Shown: piece after piece, positions 18,230 to 23,814 of the stretch
Numbering within the stretch: position 1 is the stretch's first letter
How the letters are laid out: every line of letters begins with the position of its first letter
Origin: Brevibacillus brevis
GTDB lineage: Bacteria > Bacillota > Bacilli > Brevibacillales > Brevibacillaceae
DNA length: 64,000 nt
Assembly (NCBI RefSeq): GCF_031583145.1
Contig: NZ_CP134050.1
Coordinates: forward strand, 1,020,001-1,084,000
Reading direction: 5' to 3'
Program-made: the position numbers and the translations under genes
The notes under the pieces: model-generated
Told to the model about the DNA's origin: nothing
The model's input: only the letters and a program-made list of their open reading frames with translations
The model's database searches: none

Positions 18230-19507
18230 CTAGATGCCCATCGCCGCCGAGCCGGACATCGGCATGACAGGAGTTCCTTCGGCCAGTCCTTCGACAGGAT
18301 TCAGGATCAGCTGCTCATCGCCTTGCAGTCCGCTGCGGATTTGGGTAAACAGTTCGTTTTCCACTCCGGTCTCCACTTTTTGCTTTTTGGCGATCCCGTT
18401 TGCGGCTATCCAGACGAACGTGCTTCCGTCCGCATCTTGCTGGATCGATTCGATCGGCACCTGCAAGGCGTTGTCGATTTTGTCCACCGTGATGTTGATG
18501 TCGACGTGAAAGCCCGGCTTCAAGGCAGCGATTTCACGGGAAGAAGGCTCCAGCGTCACCTTGACGCGGGTCTTCTCCCCTTGGCCGGAGCTGCTCTGTG
18601 TGGTTACGGCGATCGGAGCGATCCGGGACACCTTGGCGCTCAGCTTTTGCTTGCCCAGGGAGGTCCCTTCGATGACGGCGTTTTGACCGAGGCTCAGCTT
18701 CGTGACGTCCGACTCGTTGATATCCGCTTCGATCAGCAGGCGATCCAGATCGGCAATCGTCAAGAGCTCGGTTCCTTTGTTCACGTATTGGCCATTGTCG
18801 GCTGCCCGGGCGATGACCGTGCCGTTTGCAGGCGCGATCACAACGCTCTGGACGCGCTCCTTGTCCAGCTGTCCTTTTTCAACCAGCAGCTTGTTGATTT
18901 GCGCCTGCTGGGATGCGATCTCTTCCTTGCGCGGCCCTTTTTGCTTGAGCGAGAGCTGCTGCTTCGCCACATTCAGGGTCGACAGGGCGGTGTCTACGGT
19001 CGACTTGGCCTTGTCCAGCTCTTGCTGGGTAGAGGCGCCCGAGGCGTACAGCTGGCTGATCCGGTCGTACTCCCGCTTGGCGGTATCGTATTCGCGCTGG
19101 GCTTGCGCCAGGCGTTCACGCTCCTGCTCGACCTCCTCCGGTTCGCTGCCTGCCTGCACCTTGGCGAGGTTGGCCTTGGCCAGCTCCAGCTGTGCCTCCA
19201 GCTCCAGGATGCGGCTTTCGACGTCGGACGTATCGATCTTCCCGATGATTTGTCCTTTTTTCACCTTGTCGCCTTCTTTGACGGAAAATTCGCGCAGTGT
19301 GCCGGTTACACCCGAAAACAGCTTTTGCTTGTCCTCCACAGTCACGACACCGGAGGTCAAAATTTTGCTTTCCAGCGCTGATTTGGTCGCTGCTCCGATA
19401 CTGACCGGCATGCCCATCGCCTGTTTGGAGCCCAGCATGCTAAACGAGGCTACCCCCACGACCAGCAAGGCCGCGACGGAACCAATGATCCACCAGCGTT
19501 TTTTCAT
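18230..19507 (-). CDS. MacA/HlyD-type efflux adaptor protein
   Basis: 425 residues. N-terminal TM anchor ([18 protein letters not shown]), barrel-sandwich halves flanking a long coiled-coil (~95-235; [16 protein letters not shown], repeated Q/E heptads), then beta-barrel and membrane-proximal domains ([18 protein letters not shown]). In Gram-positive bacteria such adaptors work with a MacB-like permease to export substrates. The start at 19507 has AAGGAG 7 nt upstream; earlier in-frame starts lack one. First gene of the operon, divergent from pgi. Confidence 0.88.
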
Positions 19508-19708
19508 GATCATTCTCCTTGGATGTTTTTCAGCTTCTGTTATTTCGATACCCGATGGTTTTACGGCGGAGGTGGAAAAAGGTAACAATCATGGCGAATC
19601 GTTCACCTTTTGGTCACATTTTGTACGATTTTGACGGAAAGTACTTTCTGCCGTTTTGGCGTGATAAGATGAAGAGTAAGAGTAGATGACGTTCCTGGGA
19701 GGGGAGCC

Positions 19709-21298
19709 ATGAACCAAGCGATTCGTTTCGACTACTCCAACGCTCTTGCTTTTGTCAGACCACATGAATGGGAGCTGCTCGCTCCAGCGATTGGACAAGC
19801 GCATGAGATGCTGCACAAAAAAACGGGACCAGGCAAAGAATATCTCGGGTGGGTGGATTTGCCCGAAAAGTACGACCGCGCCGAATACCAGCGGATTCGG
19901 GAAGCGGCGGCACGCATACAGTCTGATTCAGATGTGCTTTTGGTGATTGGAATCGGTGGTTCTTATCTGGGGGCAAAGGCCGTGCTGGACATTTTGGGGC
20001 ACAGCTTTTACAACCTGCTGCCCAAGTCAAAGCGGCGGGCTCCGGAAATATATTTTGTAGGCAACAACATCAGCCCTGTCTACATCTCTCACTTGATGGA
20101 CGTCTTGGACGGAAAAGAAGTCTCGATCAACGTCATTTCCAAATCAGGCACGACGACGGAGCCGGCGATTGCGTTTCGCCTGCTGCGCGACTGGCTGATC
20201 GGAAAGTACGGCCGGGACGGGGCGAAGAAGCGGATCTACATCACGACGGACAAAGCGCGAGGGGCATTGAAAAAGCTGGCGGACGAAGAAGGGTACGAGA
20301 GCTTTGTCATTCCCGACGACATCGGCGGCAGATTCTCCGTGCTGACGGCAGTCGGGCTTTTGCCGATCGGGGTGAGCGGGGCCGACTTGGATGCGCTCAT
20401 GCAGGGGGCAGCCGATGCGAGGGAGCGGTACATGGCCCAGGATTTGCTGGAAAATCCGTGCTATCAATATGCGGCTATCCGCAACGCCCTGTATCGAAAA
20501 GGCAAGACCGTAGAGCTGTTGGTCAGCTACGAGCCGCAATTTCGCTATTTCTCCGAATGGTGGAAACAGCTTTTTGGAGAATCGGAGGGCAAGGACGGAA
20601 AAGGAATTTTCCCTGCCTCCGCCGAATTTTCTACTGATTTGCATTCGATGGGACAGTACATACAGGATGGCATGCGGCAACTGTTCGAGACTGTCATATC
20701 GGTGACGACACCCTCCGTCGATGTGACCGTGCAGGAGGATCCCCTGGATGTAGACGGGTTGAACTTTCTGTCGGGCAAGCGGATGGGGTATGTCAATAAA
20801 AAGGCTTTCGAAGGGACGGTATTGGCCCATGTGGATGGGGGCGTGCCGAATCTGTTGGTGGAAATACCGGCGGCGACGGCCTACCATCTGGGCGGACTGA
20901 TCTACTTTTTTGAAAAGGCATGCGGGATCAGCGGCTATTTGCTGGGCGTCAATCCGTTTGATCAGCCGGGGGTGGAGGCGTACAAAGCCAATATGTTCGC
21001 TTTGTTGGGCAAGCCTGGCTACGAACGGCAGAAAGCGGAATTGGAGGCTAGATTGAAAGAGAACAAGACGTATTTGACCGTTGCCGAGACCGCGGAGTAT
21101 CTGGATCTTCCCGTGACGTTCATCCTGGAGAAAATCAAGGAAGGCCGGATTCGGGCGGTTCATGACGGCAACGAGTACTTGATCAACAAAGATCAGTTCA
21201 AGCATCATCTGGAGGAGATGCGCAGGCTGAGGGAGTGGGAAGAGGCCGCTCGCCACGAGCCGATCCCGGAGAGCTACGATGTGAAGGACGAAGATTGA
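19709..21298 (+). CDS. pgi: Glucose-6-phosphate isomerase with C-terminal excisionase-like HTH domain
   Basis: 529 residues. Residues 1 to about 447 are a full-length Bacillus-type phosphoglucose isomerase: [41 protein letters not shown] and [15 protein letters not shown]. It interconverts glucose-6-phosphate and fructose-6-phosphate. After [17 protein letters not shown] comes an extra segment (about 452-505) beginning [20 protein letters not shown] and continuing IKEGRIRAV...YLINKDQF, which reads as an HTH_17/excisionase-type winged helix, then an acidic tail. Typical Pgi of Bacillus stops near 450. The reading frame is continuous with no sign of an assembly error. GGGAGGGG precedes the ATG. 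Single gene, divergent from the exporter operon. Confidence 0.93.
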
Positions 21299-21409
21299 AC
21301 TGCTTCGTCACGGAACGATGGGAGCGCAAATCATCCGGCGGTCTGAATTTTACTTGTCAGATCACTTGCCGGAGGACTATACTGGTCAATGAAAATGACA
21401 TAACGAACA

Positions 21410-21510
21410 AGCAACTTGGGGAGTCCTTCACGCAGGGCTGAGAGGATGGCAGCAACGACCATCGACCCATTGCACCTGATCCGGATCATGCCGGCGCAGG
21501 GATACGGTTG
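21410..21510 (+). ncRNA. TPP riboswitch (THI element)
   Basis: Contains the conserved TPP aptamer blocks ACTTGGGGAGTCC, GCAGGGCTGAGAGGATG, GACCCATTGCACCTGATCC and GGATCATGCCGGCGCAGGGA in the right order. It binds thiamine pyrophosphate. It precedes thiO and a terminator, so high TPP should switch transcription off. Ends approximate. Confidence 0.96.
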
Positions 21511-21546
21511 CGAGCGAACAGCGCTTTGTTTCTTCATATGCGTATG

Positions 21547-21585
21547 AGCCCACCTTTTCCTGCACAGGATCGGTGGGCTTTTTGT
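21547..21585 (+). terminator. TPP riboswitch expression-platform terminator
   Basis: AGCCCACC and GGTGGGCT around a 17-nt loop, followed by TTTTTGTTTT, between the aptamer and the thiO start. The stretch 21299-21619 holds only this riboswitch. Confidence 0.85.
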
Positions 21586-21619
21586 TTTGGCCGGGCAGAC
21601 GAGAGAAGGAGTGGAGACG

Positions 21620-22723
21620 ATGAGTGATTGTCTGGTAGTAGGCGGAGGAATCATTGGACTGAGTGTGGCATATGAACTGTCGCGGCGGGGCTTGGCTGTC
21701 ACGCTGGTGGAGCAGGGGGAGTGGGGAGGCCAGGCTTCATCGGCCGCAGCAGGCATGCTCGCCCCGTTAAAGGAATTCGCTTCACCGGGGCCGATGCTGG
21801 AGCTCGGGATGGATTCGCTGCGCTTGTATCCCCAGTGGGCGCAGGAGCTGGAGGAGTGGACAGCGGGAGACGTCCAGCTCAGTCTGGAGGGGCTCGTCAC
21901 CGTGGCCCTGTCCGACGAGGAGAGCGAACAGCTCCATGCCAAATACCTCTGGCAAAAGGAAGCCGGTCACGATGTGCACTGGCTGAACGGCCAGGAGCTG
22001 CGGGATGTGGAGCCGCTCCTGACCGACAGGGCGATCGCGGGGATATACTCCCCGGGGGAAGGCCACATCAACAATCGGCTCTTGCTGCGATCGCTCGTCA
22101 CCGCCTGCAGCATCCAGGGCGTGAAGCTGCTCTCGGGCTGCGTAGTCAGCGGGATCGCGGTGAAATCAGGCAGGGTGATCGGGGTCGAGACTTCTACCGG
22201 ACCGATCCGGGCGGAGCATACGGTGATCGCGTCCGGGGCATGGGCAGGCATCATGATGCAAATGCTTGATTTGGCAATTCCGGTGCGTCCTGTGCGGGGA
22301 CAGATCGCGGCTGTCTCCTCTGTCGGCATTCCGCTGCGCACCGTTATTTTCGGCACGTCCGGCTACATCACCCCGAAAAAGGACGGCAAGATCGTGATTG
22401 GAGCGACAGAAGACGAGAGCGGATTCCAACGGGAAGTCACCCTGGCTGGACTTGCGAGCGTATTGAACGGCGTGATGCCGTATGTGCCGGCTCTGCACGC
22501 CGCAGCATTTCTGGAAGCGTGGGGAGGTCTGCGCCCGGCTACCGCAGACGGAAAACCTCTGCTGGGCCCTGTTCCCGGCTGGACAGGGCTGTCGCTCGCG
22601 GGCGGACACTTCCGCAACGGCATTCTTTTGTCACCGGTCACAGCCAAACGGATGGCGGATTATCTCACAAGCGGACAGCCCGATCGGTTGGAGGCGTTTT
22701 TGCCTGCCCGCTTCCTGCCTTGA
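21620..22723 (+). CDS. thiO: Glycine oxidase ThiO
   Basis: 367-residue FAD-dependent DAO-family oxidase. The dinucleotide-binding motif is VVGGGIIGLSVAYELSRRG at the N-terminus; PVRGQIAAVS, the ITPKKDGKIVIGATEDE strand and the C-terminal LSLAGGHFRNGILLSPVTA are typical of ThiO. It oxidises glycine to iminoglycine for the thiazole of thiamine. The start at 21620 has AAGGAGTGG upstream; the frame is open a little further into the terminator. It follows a TPP riboswitch but, unusually, is followed by a coat-like gene rather than thiS-thiG-thiF. Confidence 0.92.
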   Translation: MSDCLVVGGGIIGLSVAYELSRRGLAVTLVEQGEWGGQASSAAAGMLAPLKEFASPGPMLELGMDSLRLYPQWAQELEEWTAGDVQLSLEGLVTVALSDEESEQLHAKYLWQKEAGHDVHWLNGQELRDVEPLLTDRAIAGIYSPGEGHINNRLLLRSLVTACSIQGVKLLSGCVVSGIAVKSGRVIGVETSTGPIRAEHTVIASGAWAGIMMQMLDLAIPVRPVRGQIAAVSSVGIPLRTVIFGTSGYITPKKDGKIVIGATEDESGFQREVTLAGLASVLNGVMPYVPALHAAAFLEAWGGLRPATADGKPLLGPVPGWTGLSLAGGHFRNGILLSPVTAKRMADYLTSGQPDRLEAFLPARFLP

Positions 22724-22827: not shown

Positions 22828-23814
22828 ATGCAGTCTGAGGAAGACAAAAACCTTTATCAGGTCGACTATCAGACGGTCACCCTGATCAAGGATATACGCC
22901 ATAATGTTCAAAGCATAGTCAAGGAGCATCTGGAAAAGAAAGTGCGTATCGAAGCAATTGACGGCCAGGTCGTGGAAGGCGTCATTGTGGATTACGACGA
23001 CCAGAACGTCTACATCGAAGTGGACGATCCCGACTACGATCCATCCGCAGATGAGATAGATGACTATCAAGTGGAACAGGTCGCCAGCAGGCAGCCGTAC
23101 GGCGGAGGCATGGGGGGCTATCCCTGGAGCCCGTACGGCGGCGGCTTCAATCCCTACCAAGGATTCGGATCGTTCGGCGGCAGCACGGGCTACCCCTATG
23201 GTCAGATGAATCCGTACGGGCAGTTCGGTCCATACGGCAGCAGCAGCAATCCGTACGGGCAGATGGGGCCGTTCGGAGGCAGCAGCAGCTACCCGGGATA
23301 CCCCATGAATCCATACAACGAAAACGCGCCGTTCAGCCAGGTCAGTCCGTACCATACGGAAAACGCACCGTTCAGCCAGGTCAGCCCGTATTATACGGAA
23401 AACGCACCATTCAGCCAGGTCAGCCCGTATCAGACAGAAAACGCACCGTTCAGCCAGGTCAGCCCGTATCAGACAGAAAACGCACCGTTCAGCCAGGTCA
23501 GTCCGTATCAGACGGAAAACGCACCGTTCAGCCAGGTCAGTCCGTACTCCACGGGAAAAAGCAACCCGAACCTAGTCAGCCCCTACCATGCACCAAACCC
23601 TTATCTCTCGCCGTTTCCGCCTTTTTCACCGTTCCCGCCGCCCATGCCCTGCATTCCGTTCATGCCGCCGCCCCCACCACCGCCGCCTCCGCGTCCGATC
23701 GGACCTCAGGCAGCCGTCGTCATTCCCAACCGGAGAAGAAGGCGCCGTTGCCGCAGCGGCCGCAAAGTCATTCCGTTGGCCCTGTTCACGCTGCTCACGA
23801 TCGCGCTTCTCTGA
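22828..23814 (+). CDS. Coat-like protein with six 13-residue repeats and Pro-rich C-terminus
   Basis: 328 residues in four parts. Residues ~1-85: a small beta-rich, possibly Sm-like domain (VRIEAIDGQVVEGVIVDYDD). ~90-165: Gly/Tyr/Pro/Ser-rich linker (NPYGQ, GGSS). ~165-242: six tandem copies of ENAPFSQVSPYxT. ~260-300: Pro-rich segment with nine prolines in a row, then a RRRRRR patch and a hydrophobic tail (PLALFTLLTIALL). Composition and layout resemble spore coat or exosporium proteins of Bacillota; that assignment is inference. GGGGAGGAG precedes the ATG. Its C-terminal hydrophobic segment could be a membrane anchor. Confidence 0.7.
   Translation: MQSEEDKNLYQVDYQTVTLIKDIRHNVQSIVKEHLEKKVRIEAIDGQVVEGVIVDYDDQNVYIEVDDPDYDPSADEIDDYQVEQVASRQPYGGGMGGYPWSPYGGGFNPYQGFGSFGGSTGYPYGQMNPYGQFGPYGSSSNPYGQMGPFGGSSSYPGYPMNPYNENAPFSQVSPYHTENAPFSQVSPYYTENAPFSQVSPYQTENAPFSQVSPYQTENAPFSQVSPYQTENAPFSQVSPYSTGKSNPNLVSPYHAPNPYLSPFPPFSPFPPPMPCIPFMPPPPPPPPPRPIGPQAAVVIPNRRRRRRCRSGRKVIPLALFTLLTIALL
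23320..23553 (+). repeat. Six tandem 39-bp coding repeats
   Basis: Six in-frame copies of a 39-bp unit encoding ENAPFSQVSPYxT; copies 3, 4 and 5 are nearly identical at DNA level, copies 1, 2 and 6 vary at the last codons (HT, YT, ST). There is no spacer between units, so this is a minisatellite within a gene and not a CRISPR array. Copy number may differ between strains. Confidence 0.92.

Follow-up and report, generated by a model that had tools for sequence, protein, structure and literature searches.

The window analyzed here comprises 64,000 nt of Brevibacillus brevis DNA and carries, on the plus strand, a single open reading frame (ORF) of 529 aa (19709–21298) that encodes a complete glucose-6-phosphate isomerase (Pgi), a helix-turn-helix (HTH) domain of the HTH_17/excisionase type and an acidic C-terminus. 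The Pgi part (residues 1–449; 19709–21055, plus strand) scored 715.6 bits against NF010697 (PRK14097; cut-off 443), with residues 3–449 on positions 2–448 of the 448-position model, and residues 4–450 align near-continuously to the solved structure 1b0z. By score and full model coverage this is a Bacillus-type Pgi, yet it differs from that type in having an HTH tail of ∼80 residues past the ends of both the model and the 1b0z alignment (residue 450). Searched alone, the tail matched HTH_17 (PF12728; E 1.7e-9, 38.2 bits, cut-off 27) over residues 455–504 (21071–21220, plus strand) and the 'excise' model TIGR01764 (E 1.1e-13, 51.3 bits, cut-off 28.8) over residues 455–502, above the curated cut-off in each case. 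No PDB sequence matched the tail better than E 0.24; this and the next best match (E 0.66) are at chance level. The acidic C-terminus (21266–21295, plus strand) closes with KDED, an ending shared by 33 of 33 sequences (distinct ones) from the family Brevibacillaceae and by 33 of 35 from outside it. A preliminary description of this DNA had read a complete Pgi followed, in one frame, by an excisionase-like HTH tail and an acidic end, and the profile matches bear this out. It had placed the start of the feature at 20990, a position still within the Pgi part; the HTH match starts at 21071.

Downstream of the fused gene lies a TPP riboswitch (RF00059, 66 bits, 21407–21522), followed by an ORF (21587–22723) that we take to encode a ThiO-like oxidase. 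The next ORF (22828–23814) has tandem TENAPFSQVSPYQ-like repeats and a proline-rich, then arginine-rich end; it is poorly conserved (51% mean identity) and, as an impression only, perhaps encodes a spore or surface protein. The window also contains an efflux-adaptor-like ORF (18230–19588). Its longest frame begins at a TTG, and a Shine–Dalgarno (SD) element with a start codon is found at residue 28 in 10 of 14 genomes, which is probably the true start.

Distribution of the fusion and origin of its junction

A Pgi of this kind is encoded in all 26 genomes of the genus Brevibacillus, in 18 as a fusion and in eight with the tail encoded separately, the HTH lying in another frame directly behind pgi. 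The identical, uninterrupted frame in 18 of 26 genomes shows the same tail on other Pgi proteins and rules out a frameshift or assembly error as the source of the fusion. Across the family, the tail was found in 38 of 39 genomes. None of the 12 carriers from other genera has the fusion, and their HTH gene either shares bases with the end of pgi or begins within a few bases of it; in three of them (G028–G030) the two share a frame and are separated by TAA. Throughout the Brevibacillaceae examined, a gene for a small (∼76–80 aa), acidic HTH_17-type protein adjoins or overlaps the 3' end of pgi. The remaining genome (G035; L178) has neither pgi nor the HTH gene, with zero matches to PF00342. Its ThiO gene adjoins the gene that flanks the other side in G034, as compared by eye. 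Since the genes of both flanks are now neighbors, pgi and the HTH gene appear to have been lost together, and this organism would either live without this Pgi or use another isomerase.

In the tree, the 18 fused genes form one clade on one side of a single branch (support 99/97). Three unfused congeners (G014–G016) are the probable sister lineage, a status held at probable by the weaker support of that grouping (87/73). We also compiled 28 named loci, 25 of them from Brevibacillaceae and largely from the same genomes as the family set; among these 25, nine are fused (B. centrosporus, B. reuszeri twice, B. formosus, B. porteri, B. fortis, B. gelatini, B. parabrevis and one uncultured) and 16 are split. 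A second, diverged Pgi (60–65% identity; copies L027, L028, L029 and L093) occurs in four of the 39 family genomes, each of which has only one tail match; three of the copies form one clade, and the copy in G006 contains stop codons.

Beyond the family, the HTH protein is widespread. In a sample of 398 Bacilli genomes, 92 matched it at E 1e-9, 35 within Brevibacillaceae and 57 outside, and in these 57 the match spans 75–76 of 76 profile positions. We read 35 outside loci, 3–4 kb per side, drawn from 32 of the 57 genomes with at least one for each of 15 families, plus three from Jeotgalibacillus. There was no pgi near the HTH gene in any of the 35. When neighboring ORFs (at least 70 aa, up to three per side) were clustered, the largest shared cluster covered six of the 35 loci and gave no functional lead; nor did these clusters show the association with integrases or mobile elements expected of an excisionase. 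Because pgi is at none of the 35 loci and no neighbor cluster exceeds six, a solo HTH gene is most likely the ancestral state, and the HTH protein would have a job independent of pgi. To our knowledge, no job has been assigned to this acidic HTH-type protein family of Bacilli.

How the two frames came into line can be read at the junction. In each of the eight split congeners pgi itself contains the nearest HTH start codon, a GTG or ATG, so that the two genes overlap by 11–44 nt; in other genera of the family, the HTH start overlaps pgi or lies up to about 5 nt past its stop, with two starts possible in G031 and G034. Read base by base, the interval between the Pgi Leu codon and the AAT of the tail is 10 bases in G003, seven in G014–G016 and six in the fused genes. 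Being a single base shorter than in G014–G016, the fused junction has the two frames in line. The former pgi stop, TAA, is still present out of frame in 12 of the 18 fused genes. The N452 codon itself is AAT in 12 and AAC in six, the latter including the gene in the window.

A candidate internal start within the fused genes

In all 18 fused genes, a GGAGG is followed after 5 nt by a TTG that is in frame and 9 nt upstream of the N452 codon, so that the conserved internal SD and start of a dual-encoding ORF are present throughout. In the window, the candidate SD occupies 21043–21047 (plus strand), inside codons 445–447, and the candidate start is the codon for L449 (21053–21055, plus strand). 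Initiation there would yield a free HTH protein of 81 aa (21053–21298, plus strand). As a start codon TTG is weaker than ATG, and 5 nt is a short SD spacing. In five of the eight unfused congeners (G003, G004, G010, G021 and G025), the HTH start, GTG or ATG, is at the same 9-nt distance, and in G014–G016 it is at 6 nt. All eight have GGAAG at the position of the GGAGG.

Codon usage at the site is also constrained. Of 331 nine-codon windows, the one spanning codons 441–449 shows the least synonymous diversity (observed/expected 0.21); shuffling gave a value as low in place in 0 of 2000 trials and anywhere in the gene in 48 of 2000 (2.4%). Among 372 degenerate columns with an invariant residue, 10.8% are codon-identical, AGA at R448 and TTG at L449 being among them. 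Codon identity is seen in only two of 41 invariant Leu columns (L449 and L456) and in one of 17 invariant Arg columns (R448), with AGA used 23 times in 306, 18 of these at R448. The constrained stretch also includes Q441, K442 and E444, upstream of the SD, and the SD does not account for these codons. Unfused congeners have AGA at R448 in eight of eight cases and TTG at L449 in two (G015 and G016), suggesting that part of the codon pattern predates the fusion. Predicted folds of 45 nt around the TTG are only moderately weak, ranking 78–91 of 555 windows.

In-frame GGAGG-N4–9-start sites also arise by chance: window ORFs of at least 200 aa, real genes or not, contain 19 in 30096 codons. Within the fused gene, the next most conserved SD-start position is shared by seven of 18 genes. 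As a control, we compared about 20 kb around the gene in 16 of the 18 fused genomes, the window's own serving as query and G011, whose contig stops close to the gene, being left out. Of 18 ORFs of at least 150 aa, again real genes or not, 13 (Pgi-HTH and 12 others; 4249 codons) were present in at least 14 of the 16 genomes; the five dropped for too few genomes likewise had no fully conserved site. Among the 13, residue 449 is the sole internal in-frame SD-start kept in every genome compared. We also considered an internal promoter in place of an internal start. The sole promoter-like site in 19500–21650 lies at 21354–21383, behind the gene, and the count of one compares with a mean of 1.3 in shuffled sequences; this candidate was rejected.

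Nature of the HTH part and competing explanations

The tail is under purifying selection after fusion. With pairs of saturated or undefined dS removed, dN/dS is 0.050 for the fused tail (111 usable of 153 pairs), 0.043 for the Pgi part (153 of 153) and 0.074 for the tail in split congeners (19 of 28). The HTH part has a net charge of –6 to –3 in the 33 distinct family sequences and –6 to +1 in the 35 from outside. Eight other HTH_17 matches of the same genome (one below cut-off, two identical) range from –1 to +4, and the outside-family sequences overlap this range. The wing, with a consensus of mostly VHxGxEYxIN, contains K or R in one of 33 family sequences and in none of 35 from outside. 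We liken the protein, presumptively and by general kind rather than by alignment, to BldC, another small stand-alone protein of the broad winged-HTH (wHTH) class. In MerR-like BldC the wing is rich in basic residues, unlike that of the Pgi-HTH family; DNA is contacted by wing residues His46, Arg47 and Arg48 and by Arg30 of the recognition helix, and binding is all but lost in H46E or R30A variants (PMC5859096). Neither a basic wing nor a BldC-like DNA face was found in the Pgi-HTH family, the recognition-helix positions being compared by eye. Judged the same way, the other HTH_17 proteins of the same genome also have no basic residue at the Arg30 position, so the case is built on wing and charge. 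Acidity and wing would point away from DNA binding and toward protein contact, which is the least certain step of our interpretation.

Given the GGAGG-N5-TTG in 18 of 18 fused genes and the minimal synonymous variation of codons 441–449, both Pgi-HTH and a free HTH protein are probably made from this locus. We regard a fusion of two neighboring genes with a built-in second start as the likelier account of the locus. The fused mRNA would direct synthesis of Pgi-HTH (529 aa) and, by initiation at the GGAGG-N5-TTG of 21043–21055, of the free 81-aa HTH protein, which would continue its ancestral job. A rather unlikely though credible alternative is that only the 529-aa protein is made, with the HTH acting while attached to Pgi and codon conservation being due to chance, ancestry or some other nucleotide constraint. 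A single product fits the uninterrupted frame in 18 of 18 genes, and the tail's dN/dS of 0.050 would be needed by a one-product fusion as well; AGA, moreover, was already in place in all eight unfused congeners. Counting against it, the lowest synonymous diversity of the gene sits on the SD-start stretch, none of the 12 other nearby ORFs has a fully conserved internal in-frame SD-start, and the HTH is encoded free in 20 of 20 unfused family genomes and in 35 of 35 outside loci.

The preliminary description had favored a moonlighting regulator coupling the fructose-6-phosphate/glucose-6-phosphate state to transcription. That Pgi-HTH is such a sugar-phosphate-responsive DNA-binding regulator, or a DNA tether, now seems improbable. 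Elsewhere in Bacilli the HTH stands alone, and none of 35 loci has pgi next to it; of the 38 family genomes with the HTH, 20 encode it as a gene of its own beside pgi; within the family it is acidic, and 32 of 33 sequences have a wing free of K and R, whereas BldC depends on His46 and Arg30 and uses its wing arginines; and the fused genes retain an apparent start site for a free protein. In favor of such a role, the HTH_17 and 'excise' models match above cut-off, and fusion or adjacency in 38 of 39 family genomes hints at a functional link; from the remaining one pgi and HTH are jointly absent, with flanking genes kept. The moonlighting label does not apply in any case, as Pgi-HTH is a fusion and the definition excludes second functions due to gene fusion (PMC4473056, PMC4384022, PMC4481411). 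Least probable is a mobile-element origin, with the HTH as the excisionase left behind pgi by an element that has since decayed. Only the family name of TIGR01764 recommends it, and we rejected it because viral, phage and plasmid collections are nearly without relatives: none was confirmed among 32 pattern matches in IMG/VR, none of 50,697 phage records matched at E 1e-5, and one of 72,556 plasmid records matched, whereas the HTH is kept in 38 of 39 family genomes. Although above both cut-offs, the tail is thus set apart from HTH_17/TIGR01764 domains by its acidity, its want of detected phage relatives and its KDED end.

Returning to a fusion with a second start, the tail on Pgi may be tolerated or may be secondarily useful, tethering Pgi to the binding partner of the HTH protein. 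The latter would, in the weakest step of the scheme, be a protein-binding adaptor acting through its fixed C-terminus rather than a classic DNA-binding excisionase. More speculatively, and with considerable doubt, we propose that a widely kept mini-protein of Bacilli arose as an excisionase-type wHTH turned protein-binding adaptor with a KDED end, that a one-base change hung this adaptor on Pgi in one clade, and that, through a selected internal start, a single mRNA would yield both enzyme-bound and free adaptor and so link the amount and location of the adaptor to glycolysis. Work on N-terminal proteoform pairs describes in-frame internal starts that likewise give two proteins per frame (PMC11005335); here, if it works, the second start would differ in preserving a once-separate gene after fusion. 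The overlapping pair of the unfused congeners has the layout of translationally coupled neighbors (PMC12548453, PMC3711429), whereas the fused clade has both frames as one. We found no report of this fusion, judging by title or abstract opening, among the open-access papers listed on Brevibacillus Pgi, helix-turn-helix proteins and Pgi gene fusion or excisionase.

These observations offer a well-resolved case of bacterial gene merger, in which solo, adjacent, overlapping and fused genes all exist in living species and the change can be followed to one base. They also draw attention to a family of acidic HTH-type proteins in Bacilli, matched in 92 of the 398 genomes sampled from the class. Should the internal start prove functional, genes can fuse without depriving the cell of the free protein, and the annotation 'Pgi' conceals a second conserved protein.
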